Positions 22,906-56,697 of a stretch of DNA of 64,000 nt are shown here, one piece after another (positions within the stretch are counted from its first letter, which is position 1; each line of letters starts with the position of its first letter). Below the pieces are notes generated by a model. The model was not told where the DNA came from, did not search any database, and worked only from the letters and a program-made list of their open reading frames with translations. The position numbers and the translations under genes are program-made. The stretch comes from Zygotorulaspora mrakii (Eukaryota; Ascomycota; Saccharomycetes; Saccharomycetales; Saccharomycetaceae): positions 930,001-994,000 of the forward strand of contig NC_050720.1 in the NCBI RefSeq assembly GCF_013402915.1. Direction: 5' to 3'.

Positions 22906-23854
22906 ATGTCCGACCCCGTGGAGCTTTTGCAGAGGGTATGTGTTTTGCCATGAGGTGACTGCGTCTACGTGTTGCAACTTTACTAACTTTCAGTTGATTC
23001 GACAGGCCGAAAAGAAGGGTACCCCTTCATCAGGGTTCTTGAAGATGTTTAGCGGATCAGACTCATATAAGTACGAGGAAGCTGCAGAATTGTGTATTCA
23101 GGCTGCCAATCTGTACCGCTTACGCAGAGAGTTGAAACTTGCCGGAGATTCGTTTCTGAAAGCTGCAGAATATCAGCTCAAGGCAAAGAATGATGATGAG
23201 GCTGCTAACACATTCGTGGAAACCTACAAATCTTACAAGAGCAGTGGAGAGTATACGAATGCGGTGGACGCCTTGGGCAGCGCTATTGAAATCTTCACGA
23301 AGAGGGGCCAGTTCAGAAGGGGAGCCAATTTCAAGTTCGAAATGGGAGAGCTGTTGGAAAATGAGCTGAGTGACTATCCAAAGGCAATCGAAAGCTATGA
23401 AACGGCCGGTGAGTGGTACGCTCAGGATCAAGCGTTGGCGTTGGCCAACAAGTGTCTGATCAGATGTGCTGACTTGAAAGCGTTGGACGCCAACTATATA
23501 GAGGCAGGCGAGGTCTATGCCAAGCTTATCAAAAACAGTGTCGGCAATAGACTCAGCCAGTGGTCTTTGAAGGATTACTATTTCAAAATGGCACTCTGTC
23601 AGCTAGCAGCCACTGATATTGTCGCCGCTACAAGGACTGTGCAAGAGGGCAAAAACACAGATGCTAACTTCGCTGATTCCAGAGAGGCTGCACTTGCTCA
23701 GGATTTAATTGAGTGCGTAAGAGAAGGCGACAGTGAAGCCCTGAGTGAAAAAGTGTTCAACTTTGATAAGTTTAACAAACTAGATAAATGGAAAACGACC
23801 ATCCTTCTGAAGGTGAAGGAAACCATCACAGAAGCTGATGACGATCTATTATAA
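22906..23854 (+). CDS. SEC17: Sec17, yeast alpha-SNAP (two exons)
   Basis: The exons are 22906-22935 and 23006-23854, giving 292 residues, the same length as S. cerevisiae Sec17. Sec17 recruits the ATPase Sec18/NSF to SNARE complexes and stimulates their disassembly after membrane fusion. Exon 1 encodes [10 protein letters not shown] and joins to [11 protein letters not shown], matching the conserved N-terminus. The rest is a TPR-like helical repeat array ([29 protein letters not shown]), ending in the family's DDLL tail that activates Sec18. In S. cerevisiae the intron is at the same place. Without splicing the main frame would begin inside the intron and lose the conserved start. Confidence 0.96.
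22936..23005 (+). other. SEC17: SEC17 spliceosomal intron (70 nt)
   Basis: The donor is the perfect yeast GTATGT at 22936 and the branch site is the perfect TACTAAC at 22981-22987. Two acceptors follow: TTTCAG ending at 22993 and GACAG ending at 23005. They are 12 nt apart and both keep the frame. The second gives the conserved junction LLQR-AEKK. The first is only 7 nt from the branch adenosine and would add four residues. Confidence 0.9.
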
Positions 23855-28689: not shown

Positions 28690-29292
28690 ATGGTTGAGGC
28701 ACAGCATATCAGGTTCTTAAGATTGAATCAAGTATTCAACAAGGCACTTTCTCAATCAGTAGCAAAACTAGAAAATTGGGAGAAGCTCTGTTCTTGTTTT
28801 CCGGAGTACTGTGCAACAAAGGAAGGTGCTGCCAATTTAAGTAACTGTCAGAGGCAGGTCATAGAGTTTTGGACCGAACTATGCAAGAGGGAATTCGAAG
28901 ACATATTGGTGGAAAGGGATGTTAAGGCAAAACTGGATGACCTTGATGACCTAGTCTTTGAGGCGAACGAGCGCCTGCGAACCACATCAACAGGAGACGA
29001 GCCCCATTGCACACCCTTAGATAAGTTATCCAGTGAACAATTAGTTGCATGCACTGTGTATGGGGAGAGGCGTGCAGCCGTTGAAGAGTTGCAAGAGAGA
29101 TTGAATACTATAAATTCGCTCAATAAAGGCTTACAGGAAGAGTTGCAAGAGCTTGAGCAAAATCTCAACGCTGGACGTAAAGATATAGAGGTCCTATGTG
29201 ATAAATACCTTGGTAAAACAATTGAAAGTCCGCTGGATGAGACTTTAGTGCAAGGTCTGAGTGACATGCTTCTCGAATTGCGCGATGCATGA
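28690..29292 (+). CDS. NNF1: Nnf1, MIND/Mis12 kinetochore complex subunit
   Basis: The protein has 200 residues (201 in S. cerevisiae). Nnf1 pairs with Mtw1 in the MIND complex that links the inner kinetochore to Ndc80. The N-terminal segment VEAQHIRFLRLNQVFNKAL and the following helices match the family. The C-terminal half is a coiled coil rich in Glu, Leu and Gln (about 120-180). It is convergent with EDE1 and downstream of PXP2. Confidence 0.92.
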   Translation: MVEAQHIRFLRLNQVFNKALSQSVAKLENWEKLCSCFPEYCATKEGAANLSNCQRQVIEFWTELCKREFEDILVERDVKAKLDDLDDLVFEANERLRTTSTGDEPHCTPLDKLSSEQLVACTVYGERRAAVEELQERLNTINSLNKGLQEELQELEQNLNAGRKDIEVLCDKYLGKTIESPLDETLVQGLSDMLLELRDA

Positions 29293-29442: not shown

Positions 29443-32400
29443 TCAGGCGCTGTCCAGTAAAAAGTTTGTAGCGGCCTCCAAATCCCACTTGCATTTTTCG
29501 AGAGCACTATGTGCTTCCTCTTCTGTAAAACCCATGCCGCTTAATTCCTCTACAGCCAAAGATTTAGGAGTTGTGGCAACCTTTCGATTAATAGGTGAGT
29601 TCGCGCTGATCTTGCCTGGCTTCGTACCGACTGGTTGTTGAACTTCAAGACCAGATGAGGTAGTCTTACCTGTAGGTTGTTTTGAATTACCGAAACCTGC
29701 AAAAATTTCATCCCATTCATCATTTGTTACATCTTCTGTTGTAGTAACGTGGGGAGCAAATCCTTCCATGGTACCAGCATGAGTTTTAGCATTTGAGTCG
29801 TTCCCTAGAGATGTTCCTGTAAAGCCATTGTGTTGCAGTTCTTCGTCTAAATCTTGGTGCTCAATCTTTTCAAATTCTTCCATTGAGCCCTCATTCTGGT
29901 CCTCATCACCAGCAGAATTGAAATCTTCTTCATCTGCTGCTTGTTCTAGTCCAGCAAAAGCATCGTCAAATTCGTCTTTGGTAGTCACAGGAACAGTGGG
30001 GTTGACAATAGTGGCAGCATTATCATTAGGTATATGATCCTTGGTATCTTCGAACTCTTCCTCAGAAGAAGAGGAATCACTTTCATGGATATCTAATTCT
30101 TTTATTGGAGGAAACTCTTCGTCAATATCATCTGTATTTGTTGGTGTCCTAAAATCTTGGCTGTCCGGTAAATCGCCTCCATGAGGGACCGGACTAACAA
30201 TCAAAGGAGATTGCTTTATACTGTCCCCAGATGAATTCGGATTTTCGTCCTGAGCACCATCATTTTTCAACGTTTCCATCTTCGATTGTTGGTCAACCTG
30301 CCTTTCACCCACGGAGCTATCCCATTGCCCTGGTATTTGAGGATAAGTCTTGCTGTCACCCTTAATTGCATTGACATTTTGACCGGCAGCCTCCTCTAGT
30401 GTTTGGGGCAATTCTATATCATCTACTACAGATTGAGGAGCATTGTTGGCTACTGAAGACGTTAAGGACTGCGTTCTTGGAATACCATACTCATTCAAGT
30501 CGCCTTCAAATCTATCAGCTAAATTTACGGCTCTTTCGGTTTCATTGATGCGATCTGCCGCTTCAGAATCGTCATCGGCTTCAGTCTGTGATCCCGTTGT
30601 AGGCACATCTTTATCGAAAACCTCACTTTCGGGTCTTTCCTCCTCATCGTTCTGCCCACGCCCTAATTTCGAATTTACGACACTGTCTTCAACAAATTTG
30701 GAAACTTCCCCTTCATTCAATCCATGATTAGCTGTTTCTTTCTCCCTACTATTCGAATTTGAAATGGCAGCTTCTTCAGGTATTTCACCCATTCCAATCC
30801 TTATCTGATTTTCAGTAAGCGATTGTATATTTCTAGCGTACTCAATATGCTGTTGCTTCAAATCTTCTTCAGCCGCATCTAGTGTATTTTTTCTTTTAGT
30901 CAGGTCTTCAAACATGGCTTGCAACTGAGAAACATGTTGCTCGTAAAGCTTTTCTTGTTCTTCAACTTCTTGATTTCTTTCATCTAGGGCTTGTGTACGT
31001 GCATTTAAATCATTATTCTTGGCTTCCAATTCTTTGTACTTAGCTTCTAGTTGAGAATGTTGCTCCTCTACCGTCTTCTGATAATCATTTAATTCTTTTC
31101 GTTTGGTGAGATAAACTTCTACCTTCTCCGTTAACCCTTGGATTTCACTCTCAAGGTTTGCAACAGTCAGCTGGCTTACTTCCAATTGCTTGGTGTTAAC
31201 ATCAACTAATGACCTTTGTTGTTTGACATCCTGTTGTTTTTCGCTTAATTGTGTCTGCATACCAGCAGCCATCGTGTTCAACCCACTTATTTGCTCTTTC
31301 AATTTGGCATTCCTTTGCTGCGCTTCATCTAATTCGGAAGAAAGTGCAGAAAGCTTTGACTCAGTAGCATGATAATTTCCCTCGGTCACACTCAACTGTT
31401 GATTCAAACTTTCTGTCGTTCTGTTGGCTTCCACGAGTTGTGCTTCCATTTGTTCGGTTTTTTTAACATTGTTTTCATGAGTGTTACGTAAGGTAGCCAA
31501 TTTGTTTTCTATCGATGCTTTCATTTCATTTACACGTCTGAGTTCTTGTTCTGCTCTGTTCTTCTTATCGTTGGTGATTGTAGCCTGTTTTGATAAGGAG
31601 TTTACTTGATTAGATAAATTTGCCATTTCAGTCGTTGCTGATGAAAGTTGTGCGGATGCTTCCGAATCCGCAAATAAATCTTGGTTGTTATTCTGGGTTT
31701 GTCTGTGTAAACCGCTAGTCACAGACCCGATCGCACCGCCTACAAGACCGCCCACTGCCGAAGCTGCAGCCATCGGCATATTGAGTGAAGCAAAGTTAGG
31801 AACGGAGGACAAATTGACTGAGGATGTTCTTGGTGCCTGCTGAGGAGCAGAGTTTGACTGCATAACAGACTGAGCTTGCTGCTGTTCTGGTAAAGCTTGC
31901 TGTGGTGCCTGTTGTGGTACTTGCTGTGGTGCTTGCTGTGGTACTTGCTGTGGTACTTGCTGTGGTACTTGCTGTGGTACTTGCTGTGGTACTTGCTGTG
32001 GTACTTGCTGTGGTACTTGCTGTGGTATTTGTTGTGGTGGCTGCTGATGAAAAGCCAAATCTTCGTCAGCTTCCTTAATAGCGTCTTGACCCCAGTCTGG
32101 CTGTCCGGGGTAACTTCTCATCGCGGAGTGATTTCCTAGTGCACTGGGAGTCGATCCAACGGAAAGATCTTGATTTCCACTAAATGAACTATGACGCTGT
32201 TGAAGCTGGGGTTGAGTTGGAGAAGCAAAAGAGCTGTTCAAGGCCAACAAATCACTTAAAGATCCGTTGTTTGAGTTGTTGCGAGTTTGCTGTGGGCGTT
32301 GCTGTGGATGTTGTTGCGGAGATTCTTGGAAAGACGGTTTGGTGTCTCTGGAAGGAACAGCAATATGAGCAGGTTGTTGCTGCGTGTATAAACCCAAAGC

Positions 32401-33486
32401 TGGTGATTGCAAAAGCTGGTCAGGTATAACATCAGGTAGTTGAACTCCCGCATTTTTTTTCTGAATCAGGAACATTGCTATAGCGAACTCGACCTTAGAG
32501 AATTCCGCATTATTATGGATATCGGCTAAGTCCCAAATACTTGCTAAGGTTTCTTGATTCAATCTTGAAGAAAGAAAGAATGGTACCAAAACCTCAGAAC
32601 TTAAGGCACCTGCTCTGGACTTGTCCAATGAGTCATAAAAGGCATCAAACTGTTGTTTTTTTTCAGGAGTCAATAACCAGTCGGTGGAAGCATTTGTAAA
32701 AACACCTGAAGATAAGCGTGTTATCGTGCCCTGCCTTGCCAAAGAGGATCTGCCAGTGGAGTTAGCGCTCAAAGGGGTAGCAGGAACAGCAATATTGTTC
32801 GCCTCTACGGAGCTCCAAGCTTGTGGGGAAAGAGAACTTGGCAATGGATTAACAGCTGGATTGTTGGTCATCAACAGTTGAATTAGATGCATCGCCATTA
32901 TGAACTCTGGCTTATCCAATGATCCCGACGCGTTTCTATCACATAAACCCCAAACACTTCCCAGGACCTGGTTTGGTAGTCTTGCCTTCAAAAAAATTTC
33001 CTTTGCTTTATCGCCTGCCAATGTCGGAGCTCCATTTGCAGCTCTTTCATATAATTGAGAGAACTTGGAAATATCCTGACCAGAAACAGCTGGAATCTGT
33101 CCGGGAGCTTGGGCTGCGGAAGTTGACAAATTAGCGGTGGGTGTCTGAACCAACGGTGGTACCGATCCATTCAAAACTAGTAGCCTCGGCGAGGGTTGTG
33201 CGTATAAATCAGCGGTCACTGGCAAATTAGGATATTGCTGCAAATGGGCCATCGTCCGTAAGGCTGCACTAAATTCATCTTGATTCAAAAAGCCCTTATT
33301 ATTGATATCAACGAGTGCCCAAATCTGTGATAGTATTTGAGCTGACAATTTTGAAGCTGCAAATAGCGGTTTGGCAGCCTCACCTGTAACGATCCCTAGA
33401 TCTTCCTTATCTAATTTTCGAAACTCATCCACAAAAAACTTGGACTCATCTGATGTGAGCGGCGTCTTAAATGTAATAGAGCTCAT
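29443..33486 (-). CDS. EDE1: Ede1, Eps15-like endocytic scaffold
   Basis: The protein has 1347 residues. Ede1 is an early-arriving endocytic scaffold that starts clathrin-coated sites at the plasma membrane. Three N-terminal EH domains bind NPF motifs (about 10-100, 125-225 and 265-365, each with an EF-hand-like loop such as DINNKGFLNQDEF). A Pro/Gln-rich linker with a PQQV tandem repeat follows. A coiled coil spans about 590-870, then an acidic region, and the C-terminal 40 residues are a UBA domain (MGFTEEEAH...LEAATNFLL). The start MSSITFKTPL at 33486 matches the S. cerevisiae start; an in-frame codon 27 bases upstream is less likely. Confidence 0.96.
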   Translation of the reverse strand: MSSITFKTPLTSDESKFFVDEFRKLDKEDLGIVTGEAAKPLFAASKLSAQILSQIWALVDINNKGFLNQDEFSAALRTMAHLQQYPNLPVTADLYAQPSPRLLVLNGSVPPLVQTPTANLSTSAAQAPGQIPAVSGQDISKFSQLYERAANGAPTLAGDKAKEIFLKARLPNQVLGSVWGLCDRNASGSLDKPEFIMAMHLIQLLMTNNPAVNPLPSSLSPQAWSSVEANNIAVPATPLSANSTGRSSLARQGTITRLSSGVFTNASTDWLLTPEKKQQFDAFYDSLDKSRAGALSSEVLVPFFLSSRLNQETLASIWDLADIHNNAEFSKVEFAIAMFLIQKKNAGVQLPDVIPDQLLQSPALGLYTQQQPAHIAVPSRDTKPSFQESPQQHPQQRPQQTRNNSNNGSLSDLLALNSSFASPTQPQLQQRHSSFSGNQDLSVGSTPSALGNHSAMRSYPGQPDWGQDAIKEADEDLAFHQQPPQQIPQQVPQQVPQQVPQQVPQQVPQQVPQQVPQQAPQQVPQQAPQQALPEQQQAQSVMQSNSAPQQAPRTSSVNLSSVPNFASLNMPMAAASAVGGLVGGAIGSVTSGLHRQTQNNNQDLFADSEASAQLSSATTEMANLSNQVNSLSKQATITNDKKNRAEQELRRVNEMKASIENKLATLRNTHENNVKKTEQMEAQLVEANRTTESLNQQLSVTEGNYHATESKLSALSSELDEAQQRNAKLKEQISGLNTMAAGMQTQLSEKQQDVKQQRSLVDVNTKQLEVSQLTVANLESEIQGLTEKVEVYLTKRKELNDYQKTVEEQHSQLEAKYKELEAKNNDLNARTQALDERNQEVEEQEKLYEQHVSQLQAMFEDLTKRKNTLDAAEEDLKQQHIEYARNIQSLTENQIRIGMGEIPEEAAISNSNSREKETANHGLNEGEVSKFVEDSVVNSKLGRGQNDEEERPESEVFDKDVPTTGSQTEADDDSEAADRINETERAVNLADRFEGDLNEYGIPRTQSLTSSVANNAPQSVVDDIELPQTLEEAAGQNVNAIKGDSKTYPQIPGQWDSSVGERQVDQQSKMETLKNDGAQDENPNSSGDSIKQSPLIVSPVPHGGDLPDSQDFRTPTNTDDIDEEFPPIKELDIHESDSSSSEEEFEDTKDHIPNDNAATIVNPTVPVTTKDEFDDAFAGLEQAADEEDFNSAGDEDQNEGSMEEFEKIEHQDLDEELQHNGFTGTSLGNDSNAKTHAGTMEGFAPHVTTTEDVTNDEWDEIFAGFGNSKQPTGKTTSSGLEVQQPVGTKPGKISANSPINRKVATTPKSLAVEELSGMGFTEEEAHSALEKCKWDLEAATNFLLDSA
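31894..32037 (-). repeat. EDE1: 12-bp coding minisatellite in EDE1 (PQQV repeats)
   Basis: Twelve tandem 12-base units encode Pro-Gln-Gln-X, with X mostly Val, otherwise Ala or Ile. The seven consecutive Val units are nearly identical in DNA, which suggests recent expansion. Prion-like Q-rich linkers of this sort in Ede1 are linked to condensation of the protein. Confidence 0.92.
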
Positions 33487-33726
33487 GGTGGCACAGTTAC
33501 AAGTACTTTTCAATCAATCGGAGATAGTTGATATTAAACCTTACCAAAACTGTCTATAATCCATTTATTTCGAGAAATTGAGCATATCCTTTTACTTTCC
33601 TTCTTAGAACAAGTAAAGGGGGTCCGTACGGTATGATGAGGTAAGCGATCCATGAATAGTCCTGTATTTTTGGTGAAGGTCTCAATTACAATAAACGATG
33701 TAATCTTGAAGTATAGCACTGTCAAA

Positions 33727-34165
33727 ATGCTTTGGAGTTTGAATAAAAAGTTCTTGATTATATTTTCTGCATCTTCGTTAGTATGTCTATATCTTAGGCG
33801 TCTCTACGGATTCTAAATACATCAGCAGTATCAACGAACACGACAAGATTCTGCATCTGGTTTCGTTTCTAATCGAATCCTTGCTGTTTGTGAAGCTATT
33901 TGACGGTGAAAATGTTGTAATCGTGAACCCCATGTGCCCTTCTGAATTTGATCTCAATAGTGGACAGCTTCAACATCGAAGAAGAGTTGAAATCAAAAAA
34001 TACAAGCTAGCATTTATCGTCTGTACTGTGAGTGCGGCCATAGGCAGCGAGTTTCTGCAGAGCATTGTTTCTTCTGGCAAAAGAGTGTTTGATTATAAAG
34101 ATATCTTGTACAATATGCTAGGTAGCGCATTGGGCATTACTCTTGCGCGTTACCAGGAACGCTGA
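33727..34165 (+). CDS. VanZ-like membrane protein, probably made by +1 frameshifting
   Basis: Two overlapping frames together encode a complete small VanZ-family membrane protein. Frame one runs from ATG 33727 through 23 codons to the CTT at 33793 and stops at TAA 33814. The next frame, entered at GGC 33797, runs 122 codons to TGA 34163. The joined product has 145 residues. It has four hydrophobic segments: FLIIFSASSLVCLYL, then one following the VanZ motif DKILHLVSF, then LAFIVCTVSAAIGSEFL, then LYNMLGSALGIT. The second VanZ motif (E..Q near residues 99-102, then FDYKDILYNMLG) is complete. The first ATG inside the second frame would miss the DKILH motif. The location next to NNF1/EDE1/RSM7 suggests the ortholog of S. 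cerevisiae YJR112W-A. Splicing from a GTATGT at 33781 is the alternative, but no good branch site or family-preserving acceptor is present. Confidence 0.8.
33793..33799 (+). other. CTT-AGG-C programmed +1 frameshift heptamer
   Basis: CTTAGGC in the zero frame is identical to the minimal Ty1 site, also used by ABP140. The peptidyl tRNA-Leu(UAG) slips from CUU to UUA while the rare AGG codon stalls the ribosome. Here the shift skips A33796 and continues with GGC at 33797. The shift must fall between the upstream TAG of the second frame (33779) and the TAA of the first (33814); the heptamer lies inside that window. Confidence 0.75.
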
Positions 34166-34250
34166 TTGATGAGTCTTCATATTTATATATACAAGAGTAG
34201 TTTCATAGTAAGGTATATATGCATTTATATGTCAGGCAATACCGCTCAGA

Positions 34251-35048
34251 TCATTTTAACCTGATGTAAGACCTATGTGCAATTGCAGTCTTATGTAATT
34301 GATCTCTCTTCTCGAAACCAGAACTATTACCTTTGTATACAGAAACTAGTTCTTCGCCCAATCTCACTGCAAAATCGCTTGAGGCTCGTTTCTGTGTACC
34401 TTCGACGATCCATTTCCAAGCTATTCTGTGCCTTTGCTTTTGATTTAACGGGACAGGGATAACGGCTGCCTTTGCGACACCAGTATTGAATGTTTTCACC
34501 ATCATCAGTGGAGCTAAATCGTCTAAAGCTTTCTTCAATACTTCGACGGGATCTTTCCGGATTTGGCAAAATACTAAATACAGTGCTCTTGATAATATCT
34601 TTTCTGCACGCTGCTTCTTGCCGTGTCTCATTATCATGTTCGTAATATGTCCCAGGATGGCGTCATGTCTTTCTGGGATTGCGAAATCCTTCAGACTTTC
34701 CAATTCCTCAAGTTGTTCCTTAGTGGGCTCGAATTGCTTCCCTTTTGACATTACTTCATCAACTATGTCTATCCTCGATTGACCTGGTGGTGCTAGTGAG
34801 GTCTCAGGGAGAAATGCTTGTTCTGAAAACTCAGCCTTCAAAGATTGAATAGCAGCAAGCCACTTTTCAACCTCTGAATCTTCCAAGTGAGAAGTCCTTT
34901 CTTGTTCTGTCGTGTCATTATTTGCAGTATGGGTACTCTGAAATCTGATTCCCACAGCTCCCGCAGTGATTGGACGGACATGGCATTGTCCTATGTTGCG
35001 CACCACAACCCTTTGCAGTAGATTTATTCTCGATAGTCGCCACATCAT
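34251..35048 (-). CDS. RSM7: Mitochondrial small-subunit ribosomal protein uS7m (Rsm7)
   Basis: The protein has 265 residues. It is a homolog of bacterial S7, which binds the head of the small-subunit rRNA. The N-terminal 35 residues are basic and hydrophobic with few acids, a mitochondrial presequence. The uS7 domain covers the C-terminal 150 residues: [20 protein letters not shown] is the conserved S7 helix, followed by [11 protein letters not shown] and a basic C-terminus. Two adjacent ATGs (35048 and 35045) are possible starts. The order EDE1/VanZ-like/RSM7 fits YJR113C. Confidence 0.94.
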
Positions 35049-35345: not shown

Positions 35346-36668
35346 ATGAGAGATATGACGTTGCCTGGACCGAAACTAGAAGGGAGTGTGAGTGATGTTG
35401 ATATCAATATGATGGGTATCAAGTCACCACAGTTGTATCATTTTTTAAAGACGGTTATAGAGGAGAGGGGTTTGGAAGCTCTACAGAAAGTCAAAGCTAA
35501 TGAGATTTTGCCGGACTTGGTTCATCATATGTCTGTAACAATTCCAAATGATATTTTAGGAAATTATAGTAATAGGAATGAGAACGATTTCCGACATTTA
35601 AAGGAAACATTGGCTAAATTTGGTGAATATTTATTAAAGAATTTTAGTGTGGAACAAAAATATCCATTTACTATTCTTCGAATTTGCGAATTATGTTATG
35701 ATCCACTGAAATATTATAAAATTCATGAATTGAGAAAATTTGTCGGAGCGATAAGTAAGTGCTGTATTGTTAGGTCAAGTTGGCAATACTTTGAAGAATC
35801 TGATGGATTTTACACTGATCGAGAAAACGATGAGGAACAGGGAGAAGACGTTTCGCTGACAAAAATACCCTGGGTTGATGAAGAAGCTGAAAAGGAGCTC
35901 GCTCCATTTTTGAAAGAGATTGATGCGCTTGTGAGTCCAAACTTAGGTTATGAGGAGGATGAAGAGGATGAAGATATGGATGTAGATACCAATGACTCAA
36001 CAAATGGAAGTGGGGATTTCAGAATTGAAGAATATTACGAAAATCTACCCCGAAGCAGTAATGGTGTAGCTGATGACGACTTTGATGATGATTATGATGA
36101 TGATGATTACGATGATGATTACGTCGAAACCCCAACATCAGATGATAATGAACAGTGGACTGAAGATAGTATAGAAGAGAATCTCAATGAGCTTGATGAT
36201 AACAATGAGGACGAACGAGATAATTGTCATGAAGATACAGGTAGTGAAGTTGTTGCTTCAGGATTCAACGATCCAGTTGAAGAATCAGATAATATACCAC
36301 CGTCTAAAAGGAAACCCACAGAATTAGATGACTTCGAATACAAAGAATCACCAAATGCAGTAGAGACTCATCTACTTGCAACGCCTAAAAAGGTAAAACA
36401 TGATAAAGGAAATCGTATATTAGAATCTCCAAGTATAATAGACTCAGATAATGATGAAAATACTACACCACTACAATCACAAGAAACACTACCCGATAAA
36501 AGGTCACGATCGCAATCACCAAGTTCCGAACATCACGTCCCCATATTGGTATCGCCAAGGGAGAATTATGATGATAAACAAGTTCCACAGGAGGGGAAAT
36601 TACGTGATTTAATGGACGAAACCTACGATAGAGACACTGGTAGTCCCTTAAGTAATAAAAATAGGTAG
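35346..36668 (+). CDS. PSY4: Psy4, regulatory subunit of the PP4 phosphatase
   Basis: The protein has 440 residues (441 in S. cerevisiae). Psy4 is the PPP4R2-type regulatory subunit that, with Psy2, directs the Pph3 phosphatase to gamma-H2A during checkpoint recovery. The N-terminal PPP4R2 domain covers about 15-155, including LVHHMSVTIPNDILGNY and PFTILRICELCYDPLKYY. The C-terminal half is very acidic, with Asp/Tyr runs near 240-265, then Ser/Pro-rich. The start at 35346 is the first ATG in frame; the longer open frame begins at a TTG. RSM7 is divergent upstream and COR1 follows, as YBL046W-045C in S. cerevisiae. Confidence 0.92.
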   Translation: MRDMTLPGPKLEGSVSDVDINMMGIKSPQLYHFLKTVIEERGLEALQKVKANEILPDLVHHMSVTIPNDILGNYSNRNENDFRHLKETLAKFGEYLLKNFSVEQKYPFTILRICELCYDPLKYYKIHELRKFVGAISKCCIVRSSWQYFEESDGFYTDRENDEEQGEDVSLTKIPWVDEEAEKELAPFLKEIDALVSPNLGYEEDEEDEDMDVDTNDSTNGSGDFRIEEYYENLPRSSNGVADDDFDDDYDDDDYDDDYVETPTSDDNEQWTEDSIEENLNELDDNNEDERDNCHEDTGSEVVASGFNDPVEESDNIPPSKRKPTELDDFEYKESPNAVETHLLATPKKVKHDKGNRILESPSIIDSDNDENTTPLQSQETLPDKRSRSQSPSSEHHVPILVSPRENYDDKQVPQEGKLRDLMDETYDRDTGSPLSNKNR

Positions 36669-47876: not shown

Positions 47877-48917
47877 TTACAAATCATTTATAGCGTGGGA
47901 AATATACTCCATGTCCGATTCATCTTCATGAATTTCATAAGCCTTCCCAGCAGCGTCATTAACCTTTTGTTGCATATCTTCCAGAGATGGGTATATGCTG
48001 ATGGAATGGAAATCGGAGACAAAATTTGACAGCGCAGTTTGGTCGCCATCGATACAGAGTTTGGTAAGTCGGCGAACAGTTTGAATTTCCTTTTTCAACA
48101 GTTCGCTATCATACTGATGAAACTCGATGCGCACTACAGTCGAATTTGAACCACCGCAATTTCGGGGCAAGAGCATCAGACTGGGGAAGTGAGACACCCT
48201 GAAGAGATTGGTAAGATGTGATGTTGAGCGCTGCGAACCATCGATGTCAAATGTTTTCAACTTGTCGTCGAAAAACTGTGAATTCTGTACCAACAACGAA
48301 GACGGCCGAGAAGATTGGAATAGTTCCTGATAGTAGAAATCCATCCAAGGGGATGTAAACGACAAGATATTTACCAAACTTGCACCCGACGTCGCGTCCA
48401 AATAATCCAGGGAGTCCGAGTCTGCGTGTGGGCCCAGCTTGTCCAACTCAATAATATTTTCATGGACCGGCTGCGGCAAGGCGGGTGTCTCCCCCGTCAA
48501 TTGTGTCAGGTAGTGCGCCATGCGATAAACGTCGCCCGCACCGTGGTATACACCCTTGAGCAGATTTTTTGGTGTCAATTCCGGCTCGACCTGAAACCCT
48601 GCCAAATTCTCTTTCGCCTCGAAGAGCATCAGATACGGATACGTATCCACATTGAAGTCTTTATCGAGAATCCTGCATTTTCTGCCGTCAATCATAATAA
48701 AGTTCAGCGCCCCGTTAAAGAAACTAGACAGCATCTCGAATTTAGGCATCAGCTCCTTACACCAGGGGCACTTGGGAGAATAGATATATACGAACGAATA
48801 CCTGTCAGTACTGAGCAACTCGCCATACAGGTCCTTCGTAGTGCTGAACTCGTGCAACATACCCGCTGCGCACTTCACCGCCATAACTAGCACCATCCAC
48901 TGGCACATCAGTCTCAT
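47877..48917 (-). CDS. Secreted/ER thioredoxin-fold protein (PDI-like), CPWC
   Basis: The protein has 346 residues. It has a signal peptide (about 1-19), then a thioredoxin domain with an active-site-like C50-P-W-C53 (YIYSPKCPWCKELMP) and the cis-proline motif DTYPYLMLF near residues 95-103. A second region, about 185-300, looks like another thioredoxin-type fold without the cysteine pair (SFTSPWMDFYYQELF). The C-terminus is acidic and ends INDL, not HDEL. It resembles protein disulphide isomerases in layout but does not match S. cerevisiae Pdi1, Eug1, Mpd1, Mpd2 or Eps1 by length or active-site sequence as I know them. Likely an ER oxidoreductase or chaperone; the substrate is unknown. It lies next to ERD2. 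Confidence 0.75.
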   Translation of the reverse strand: MRLMCQWMVLVMAVKCAAGMLHEFSTTKDLYGELLSTDRYSFVYIYSPKCPWCKELMPKFEMLSSFFNGALNFIMIDGRKCRILDKDFNVDTYPYLMLFEAKENLAGFQVEPELTPKNLLKGVYHGAGDVYRMAHYLTQLTGETPALPQPVHENIIELDKLGPHADSDSLDYLDATSGASLVNILSFTSPWMDFYYQELFQSSRPSSLLVQNSQFFDDKLKTFDIDGSQRSTSHLTNLFRVSHFPSLMLLPRNCGGSNSTVVRIEFHQYDSELLKKEIQTVRRLTKLCIDGDQTALSNFVSDFHSISIYPSLEDMQQKVNDAAGKAYEIHEDESDMEYISHAINDL

Positions 48918-49225
48918 CTTCGTCCGCGTACCTACCTGCGTGTCTTGCCAAGAAACCGCGAGTCCGCCAAGCTTCTGTATCTATATTTGTTGGTGAATTA
49001 TACGGCTTCATTTCCCACATGCTAGATGGAAGGAAAGGGACCATGCAAGGTGTGCAGCGAATTCCTTCTCCATTCTCATCATGTACGTCGCGCCCTGCGG
49101 CCAGTCTCCAGGTAAGAATGGCGAAGTTGACTTTAGGAAAAACAAGCGACATTCGTGACAAGAACCTGGTCCATCTACACAGCAACCACAGCAGCAGAGC
49201 AGGGGCCACATCGCAGCTTTCAAGA
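48918..49225. promoter_or_regulatory. Divergent promoter, PDI-like gene and YBL039W-B-like gene
   Basis: About 308 bases, GC-rich near 49060-49225. The open frame of the microprotein extends back to 49019, but that part is not conserved in the S. cerevisiae relative as I remember it. Confidence 0.45.
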
Positions 49226-49402
49226 ATGGGCTTTTTCGTCGATAACCCTTTAATCGAGTTTTTCCACAGGATAGTGCGCAAACCGAGCACTATCATGATG
49301 TGGCTATTCACATCTGTGATAGTCGCAAGCACAACGTATCTGATGTTTCTGCCGGGAGCCAAGCAGCAGCCCCGCCCTCCCAGCCAGGATGACAACATGT
49401 AG
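49226..49402 (+). CDS. Small membrane protein, YBL039W-B-like
   Basis: The protein has 58 residues. MGFFVDNPLIEFFHRIVRKP is followed by one hydrophobic segment (about 20-42) and a polar tail. The first 20 residues closely resemble the S. cerevisiae microprotein YBL039W-B, which lies in the same place next to ERD2 and URA7. Function is unknown; a single membrane anchor near an amphipathic basic helix suggests an organelle membrane. The start is chosen by that similarity; an earlier in-frame ATG (49019) would add 69 non-conserved residues. Confidence 0.72.
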   Translation: MGFFVDNPLIEFFHRIVRKPSTIMMWLFTSVIVASTTYLMFLPGAKQQPRPPSQDDNM

Positions 49403-54972: not shown

Positions 54973-55147
54973 TATTTCACAGTTACTATCACAAACGTGA
55001 GATCACCCACCCTATTTTACGCTAAATATGTTCACAAGTATGTTTAAAAGTGAAGTTATTACACCTGTTTGATTCATTCGACCTATCTTCTCTACTTACG
55101 ATGAAAAAAGCATTAAGAATGAAAAAAAATTATAAAAATTAAAAAAA

Positions 55148-55247
55148 TGAGAGCTAAGGGATTCGAACCCTTGCATCCGAAGATATCAGAGAATTTAACT
55201 TGATAACAACCTAAATCTGACGCCTTAAACCACTCGGCCAAACTCCC
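55148..55247 (-). tRNA. tL(UAG): tRNA-Leu (anticodon UAG) with intron
   Basis: Reading the minus strand, the acceptor stem GGGAGTT pairs with AGCTCTC and discriminator A. The D arm, variable arm and T arm (GGTTCGAATCC, B box) are all typical of yeast tRNA-Leu. The anticodon is UAG at 55211-55213. An 18-nt intron lies at 55192-55209, one base after the anticodon; its removal restores the loop TTTAGGC. A run of seven T's follows the 3' end on the minus strand, the Pol III terminator. Mature length is 82 nt. The same tRNA is intron-containing in S. cerevisiae. Confidence 0.95.
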
Positions 55248-56697
55248 ATACAATGTATATTATCTTACATTTAACACACATGTATATAGGTTAGGAAATC
55301 TGGAGCTCAAATCTATCTTGCGTCTTGATCGAAGATTCTCCTTCACCCCGTTTGGAACATGTGTGCATTCAAATCATTGAGATATATATTGGTATCCGTT
55401 GACGTCAGATGTATTTAGAAAGAATGTTTTCTTCGGCGTTGTCGATAGTAACTTGGTTTGACATTGATGATAATGCTATGATATTTAATTATAGAGATAT
55501 ATAATTCCTTGGTTTCTATATCATGAATTGAGATAAAACTAATTGAACTTGGATTAATATCTGGAAAATACTTCAGGATTTATACCCAGCAATTCGCACC
55601 TATTGAACCATAAGAGAGGACGACGGGTGAAGAATTTTGATCGTCATCACACCATTTCTAGTTCCATAGAATTCACAGTACAACTGTTATTTCATGTTCC
55701 ATGCCATAGACTCCTTCGTAGTCAGACTCCTGAGTTGTAAACGTCTCGTGATAGATTATCATCCGATATCTTTCCAGTATCGATTGACATTCTGTTAGGG
55801 TTTCATCTGACTTCGTTTATTTTGTTTTACAGACCAATTGTCTCTTTCTGATTCTTATAAGTCATCTCTTTAATGTATCTTACAATATCGATTTATATTT
55901 CAACAATTATATCACATTCTAGAAATGGTTTGGTGACAGGCCGCGTTATGACTTTAGAAAATGAGATTCCTTCGCTCCCTTTTACGCCTTGTGCCACAAT
56001 AGGTGTTACTCTTCGGTGTAAGTACCAACACTTTTTCCAGGCATCTCATTTCGTTCAGCTCATCATTTAATTTCATGCCATAGACAAAGAAGTGCTTCTT
56101 TATCTCAATAGTTCAACATAACAGTAAAAGTAGCAATACTTTTCCTAATGTGTTCCAGGAATTGTGATAAAGACCCCATCGATAGTTTACGAGCCGAAAC
56201 AATTTCTATGAACCACGTCCTATAAACCACTACGTCAGAATCGCTTGGGGTAATATTCAGATAACGAGCAAAACAAGTTTATACGCAGAGAGCATGAATT
56301 TGTGAGTCAGGTATCCTGTTATGATTGATCGAGAAGAGCGCATGACAATTGACTGCCTGATGACCATGAACATCACTTTTCTCTCCTAATTCGGTGTCCG
56401 CACTACGTCAATGTCTTTGGTCTACATCCATTGAAATCTCTGAGTCCAGTTACGAGTAACATCGTCATATGGATCTCAAACGGGAGGCTAACAGGTTTGA
56501 AAGTTAATTTGGAAATTCTCATAACTGCCTTCAAGAGCAGCAGATGACCGGAAGATCCCATCATGATCATACCGTTTTTTGAAGATGGCAGTTTGAAGAA
56601 ACATCATATACCACGAATTTGCCATCAATACATTTGCAAGCAAGAATCAGGCTCCCCCCTTGGTTAGATGAATTATCCCTGCTAATAGATTCCCATT
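55248..56697. other. Long gene-free region next to a tRNA gene
   Basis: 1.45 kb without a convincing gene, adjoining the 5' end of the tRNA. Sequences upstream of tRNA genes are preferred Ty insertion sites, so LTR remnants might be expected. I looked for TGTTG...CAACA ends and for clear repeats and did not find a convincing pair. A 12-mer, CATGCCATAGAC, occurs twice (near 55704 and 56074) without extended similarity. Confidence 0.4.

Follow-up and report, generated by a model that had tools for sequence, protein, structure and literature searches.

How a complete protein can be made from a gene whose start codon and conserved domain lie in different reading frames is the question raised by a small locus of Zygotorulaspora mrakii. 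In the window (the whole stretch of 64,000 nucleotides that was analyzed), the zero frame of this locus opens with an ATG at position 33727 and, in our reading of the window's open reading frames (ORFs), ends after 29 codons with a TAA at 33814-33816. A TAG at 33779-33781 closes the +1 frame, which meets no further stop from 33782 to 34162 (127 codons) and ends with a TGA at 34163-34165. Because of the +1-frame TAG and the zero-frame TAA, positions 33782-33813 are the only stretch that allows a passage from one frame to the other. The first ATG of the +1 frame is at 33932 and its only other one at 34115, both downstream of its DKILH motif. The initial annotation had claimed that a complete protein requires the two frames to be joined within this stretch; the claim holds on a check of the frames, and the annotated frames, stops, joinable stretch and heptamer were all placed correctly. 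Translation most likely starts at ATG 33727, whose context looks better by eye (GTCAAAATG). Another ATG in the same frame, at 33652, is an alternative start, and three out-of-frame ATGs (33633, 33636 and 33698) are also found upstream. The joined product has 145 residues, and its single-sequence fold has a mean pLDDT of 39.8.

The proposal that the gene is VanZ-like is borne out by the Pfam VanZ model, which matches the +1-frame protein with 33 bits (curated cut-off, 30.1), whereas the score for the NCBIfam model vanZ_1 is below its cut-off (16.1 versus 20). With the two frames joined, the Pfam score is 33.2 bits. Joining barely alters the score because the match sits wholly in the second, +1-frame part, and the domain score alone is therefore no proof of the joint. 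A scan of viral contigs with the +1-frame protein revealed no relative, and a comparison of the LLP1 protein with PDB sequences gave no match. The gene is surrounded by NNF1-, EDE1-, RSM7- and PSY4-like genes (Table 1), which fit an orthologue of S. cerevisiae YJR112W-A/LLP1. In S. cerevisiae, YJR112W-A is flanked by NNF1 and RSM7 on chromosome X, and EDE1 and PSY4 are adjacent on chromosome II; both expected neighbors, NNF1 and RSM7, are represented here. The merging of the NNF1/RSM7 and EDE1/PSY4 orders suggests a lineage without the whole-genome duplication. Judged by its domain and neighborhood, the gene is the orthologue of YJR112W-A/LLP1 and is predicted to encode a small VanZ-like membrane protein. 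The neighboring EDE1-like protein contains 12 consecutive four-residue repeats (PQQV, PQQA and PQQI; 31894-32037, minus strand). In PMC12419801, YJR112W-A typifies the fungal clade of the VanZ-2 lipocone family, whose members, like the protein described here, have a small standalone VanZ domain. The motifs that we recognized by eye (DKxxH and DxxDxxxN) are similar but not equal to those given there for VanZ-2 (RKxxH and DxxxD).

Table 1. Features of the LLP1 locus and its neighborhood (window positions) and shift sites of other +1 genes in the genome (contig:position)
Feature	Position	Strand	Remarks
NNF1-like gene	28690-29289		Pfam Nnf1
EDE1-like gene	29443-33486		EH/UBA protein; Pfam
ORF1 of LLP1 orthologue	33727-33816	+	Zero frame, ATG to TAA; start and first hydrophobic segment
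GTATGT	33781-33786	+	5′ splice-site-like, without consensus branch point downstream
Joinable stretch	33782-33813	+	32 nt; overlap of the two frames
CTT-AGG-C	33793-33799	+	Ty1/ABP140-type +1 heptamer; CTT and AGG are zero-frame codons; skipped base A 33796
ORF2 with VanZ-like domain	33797-34165	+	+1 frame, ends with TGA; DKILH, SEFLQ (ExxQ) and FDYKDILYN, motifs by eye
TTCTAAA	33811-33817	+	Nearest to TACTAAC (2 mismatches); 30 nt after GTATGT
RSM7-like gene	34251-35048		Pfam Ribosomal_S7
PSY4-like gene	35346-36668		Pfam PPP4R2
EST3 shift site	C6:564056		CTTAGTT
OAZ1 shift site	C3:264673		GCGTGAC
BIR1 shift site	C2:1012871	minus	CTTAGGC

Inside the overlap of the two ORFs lies CTT-AGG-C in the zero frame, the arrangement of Ty1/ABP140-type shift sites. 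The joinable stretch offers 10 usable zero-frame positions rather than the roughly 11 counted in the initial annotation. The accompanying estimate that the heptamer would rarely occur there by chance (about 0.0007) still stands, with probabilities of 6.1e-4 under equal base frequencies (4^-7), 4.5e-4 under the base composition and 1.8e-4 under the codon usage of the window. The codon-usage model was built from 32 of the 34 window ORFs of at least 170 amino acids, two overlapping ORFs being left out. CTTAGGC occurs once on the two strands of the window (shuffle mean, 4.36). The codon pair CTT-AGG is absent from the 32 ORFs, with 1.6 expected, numbers too small to claim avoidance. We also scanned both strands for five +1 heptamers that could connect an ATG-containing frame ending within 150 nt to a +1 frame 60 or more codons long, and the site at 33793-33799 alone does so. 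A second candidate was a pair of ORFs that overlap at 47877-49398 (minus strand). Their overlap contains GCGAGTT (48823) and GTATGT (48862), and the upstream 197-amino-acid frame has no Pfam match; because the pair failed the heptamer scan, we regard it as due to chance. The sites of Ty1, ABP140 and YFS1 have the same heptamer in the same zero-frame register and involve the same rare AGG tRNA, in different genes. ABP140 also has an upstream stem-loop, a counterpart of which is not established here from RNA folds made without a shuffled control.

The tRNA genes of the genome (10.45 Mb in 9 contigs) fit such a site. Our tRNA counts are lower bounds, as they come from exact patterns or from the matches listed. 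The exact pattern for tRNA-Arg(CCU) has at least one match in the genome, read as Arg(cct) by ARAGORN, and 30 loci that were read include at least seven for tRNA-Arg(TCT) on nuclear contigs. At least three intron-containing genes for tRNA-Leu(UAG) are present, since three of the six UAG-pattern matches were read as Leu(tag); the other three are a match read as Ser(GCT) and two with the same matched sequence. No nuclear tRNA-Leu(AAG) was recognized among the 12 AAG-pattern matches found genome-wide. ARAGORN read two of them as Ser(TGA) and Ser(AGA), and seven more agree fully in matched sequence with one or the other. Of the rest, two are in contig C9 (Leu(TAA) was read at one) and one does not look like a tRNA; 10 of the 12 were thus judged by identical sequence, by position or by eye. 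The single GAG-pattern match in the genome was not read as a tRNA. Within these pattern searches, the genome combines scarce tRNA-Arg(CCU) with the presence of tRNA-Leu(UAG) and the absence of tRNA-Leu(IAG). PMC12719033 links shifting at CUU to an abundance of tRNA-Leu(UAG) and absence of tRNA-Leu(IAG). The CUU of the shift site would be decoded by tRNA-Leu(UAG). One intron-containing tRNA-Leu(UAG) gene is located in the window itself (55147-55248, minus strand) and is detected by ARAGORN only if introns are allowed. From its tRNA set, we infer that contig C9 (37,644 bases) is mitochondrial. Its tRNA matches are repeated at a distance of about 27.1 kb (e.g., 4429/31572 and 5354/32497), a pattern that would fit a circular molecule of about 27 kb read beyond its own start.

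Known +1 genes were sought by family in the same genome, and one locus each was found for EST3 (PF10341), OAZ1 (PF02100) and BIR1 (PF00653). All three need a +1 shift, and each has one of the known heptamers in the register that such a shift requires (Table 1). ABP140 provides weaker evidence, because CTTAGGC helped to pick its locus. This candidate is the best-scoring methyltransferase locus (12 loci read, 17 matches); it lacks an upstream ATG in its own frame, and a CTTAGGC at C1:1169400 joins the methyltransferase frame to a first frame of 170 codons, so that the locus is likely to be ABP140. YFS1, another gene with CTT-AGG-C, was not found in the genome with PF10544. Together with the tRNA genes, these other +1 genes support the mechanism that we propose below for LLP1.

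Splicing is the only serious rival to a frameshift: the frames would be joined by a very short intron, such as the one annotated in S. cerevisiae. A perfect 5′ splice-site hexamer, GTATGT, begins at 33781, but the shortest frame-compatible intron that starts there ends at 33847 and would cost the protein everything between Val-Cys and the DK of DKILH, both included. When donors (GT or GC, 33730-33815) and AG acceptors within 500 nt were enumerated, the frame-compatible introns included one of 49 nt, from GTTAGT at 33777 to AG at 33825, and one of 52 nt, to 33828, which would yield proteins of 129 and 128 amino acids, respectively. The annotated YJR112W-A intron of S. cerevisiae is likewise 49 bp long, and the gene is counted in PMC4202332 (2014) among those with divergent orthologous introns. 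Yet the 49-nt intron, although it would spare more of the protein, would have to use the non-consensus donor GTTAGT and a TTCTAAA branch site at a donor-to-branch distance of 34 nt; neither TACTAAC nor CTAAC nor CTGAC occurs within 33641-34170, and no consensus branch point lies between donor and acceptor. As a positive control, a SEC17-like SNAP gene elsewhere in the window has a canonical intron, with GTATGT at 22936 and TACTAAC at 22981. (The first exon of this gene, which spans 22906-23854, is 30 nt long.) In S. cerevisiae, moreover, the last bases of the annotated 49-bp intron are not AG, and RNA-seq coverage is described as uniform across it (PMC12661321). We rejected splicing at LLP1 because a consensus branch point is lacking and the motif would be lost, and we consider it very improbable; GTATGT is most likely coding and specifies Val-Cys.

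The least credible of the explanations is that the heptamer is there by chance, the frame having been broken by an indel of sequencing or assembly or the gene being a recent pseudogene. The sequence does come from one assembly only. Against this reading, the chance of the heptamer is just 1.8e-4 to 6.1e-4, VanZ is matched by a +1 frame that stays open for 127 codons, the architecture recurs in other +1 genes of the genome, and a +1 split of LLP1 is published for other species (PMC12661321, PMC3737163 and PMC5433688). A +1 shift at CTT-AGG-C, as the initial annotation had suggested, remains the best reading: the heptamer is unique in the window, and the other +1 genes and the tRNA genes fit.

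The initial annotation also implied that a +1 gene of the VanZ family would be new, which does not survive a comparison with the literature. In Ashbya, ABR148CA is included in a list of genes whose translation apparently crosses a +1 frameshift, and YJR112W-A itself is termed a frameshifted gene (PMC3737163, 2013). Both LLP1 copies of Zygosaccharomyces (Z.) parabailii need a +1 shift at CTT-A-GGC (PMC5433688, 2017). In S. cerevisiae, the annotated intron of YJR112W-A stays in the mRNA and the coding sequence consists of two ORFs combined via +1 frameshifting (PMC12661321, 2025), on the evidence of ribosome profiling, RNA-seq and a reporter shift of about 40%; the heptamer is described as universal in Saccharomyces. 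The initial annotation had guessed that the intron annotation of YJR112W-A conceals a +1 shift, and the conclusion of PMC12661321 bears the guess out. The same article cites an independent discovery (JCB 2025), in which the protein is named Llp1 and termed in the title a pyrophosphatase in dolichol-linked oligosaccharide homeostasis and quality control; YJR112W-A is mentioned also in PMC3226532. LLP1 of S. cerevisiae, Z. parabailii and Ashbya belongs to the same family and needs a +1 shift, as here, and a CUU-A-GGC near the 5′ end is common to the genes of Zygotorulaspora mrakii, S. cerevisiae and Z. parabailii. The Zygotorulaspora mrakii gene differs in being adjoined by EDE1- and PSY4-like genes besides the NNF1- and RSM7-like ones, and the shift of about 40% is the S. 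cerevisiae value. The +1 shift of LLP1 is already known, and Zygotorulaspora mrakii would be one more case.

We propose, with high confidence from the sequence, that the LLP1 orthologue is read by a +1 frameshift at CTT-AGG-C, by tRNA-based slippage. Ribosomes would start, most likely at ATG 33727, and soon reach CUU-AGG-C, where the AGG codon would wait for the scarce tRNA-Arg(CCU). During the wait, tRNA-Leu(UAG) in the P site would slip from CUU to UUA, so that GGC would be the next codon. Such slippage in Zygotorulaspora mrakii is what the site and the tRNA genes point to. The product, by analogy with S. cerevisiae Llp1, may act as a pyrophosphatase in dolichol-linked oligosaccharide homeostasis and quality control. 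It is plausible that the output of the shift would depend on the supply of tRNA-Arg(CCU), another proposal of the initial annotation.

The search for other +1 genes also yielded a closer look at BIR1, a gene that is essential in S. cerevisiae. The Zygotorulaspora mrakii orthologue (C2:1012181-1014308, minus strand) has two BIR domains in an open frame of 494 codons; CTTAGGC occurs in it with 30 nt left to the stop, and another 229 codons follow in the +1 frame. With 35 zero-frame positions in the joinable stretch, the heptamer would occur by chance with a probability of about 0.002 (4^-7). The vicinity of the joint contains no consensus donor or branch point, and the one GTGAGT begins 236 nt past the heptamer start. 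Pfam gives no match for the +1 part, the best PDB match of which (E = 0.015) is an unrelated-looking protein. The site, CTT-AGG-C, differs from that of Z. parabailii, where BIR1 is reported to shift at CTT-A-GTT (PMC5433688). PMC2876123 lists BIR1 of C. glabrata and Z. rouxii as pseudogenes with no other homologue in their own genomes. Among the open papers searched, these two were the only ones found to mention BIR1 together with frameshifting, EST3 and ABP140. The BIR1 genes of C. glabrata and Z. rouxii may be shifted genes and not pseudogenes.

In this lineage, the unrelated genes LLP1, BIR1 and the likely ABP140, and EST3 with a related site, would share slippery CUU-AG sites, three of which would be read by one scarce tRNA-Arg(CCU), BIR1 having been added to this set through its CTT-AGG-C. 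We mention as a long shot that the supply of this tRNA could jointly tune quality control of lipid-linked sugars, actin binding and tRNA methylation, and chromosome segregation. For BIR1, our findings give a reason to recheck the gene in C. glabrata and Z. rouxii, where it has been called a pseudogene. For LLP1, they add one more species, from sequence alone, in which a gene that has long carried a tiny intron in its annotation would be read by +1 frameshifting, and whose genome combines the shift site with the tRNAs that are presumed to drive shifting.
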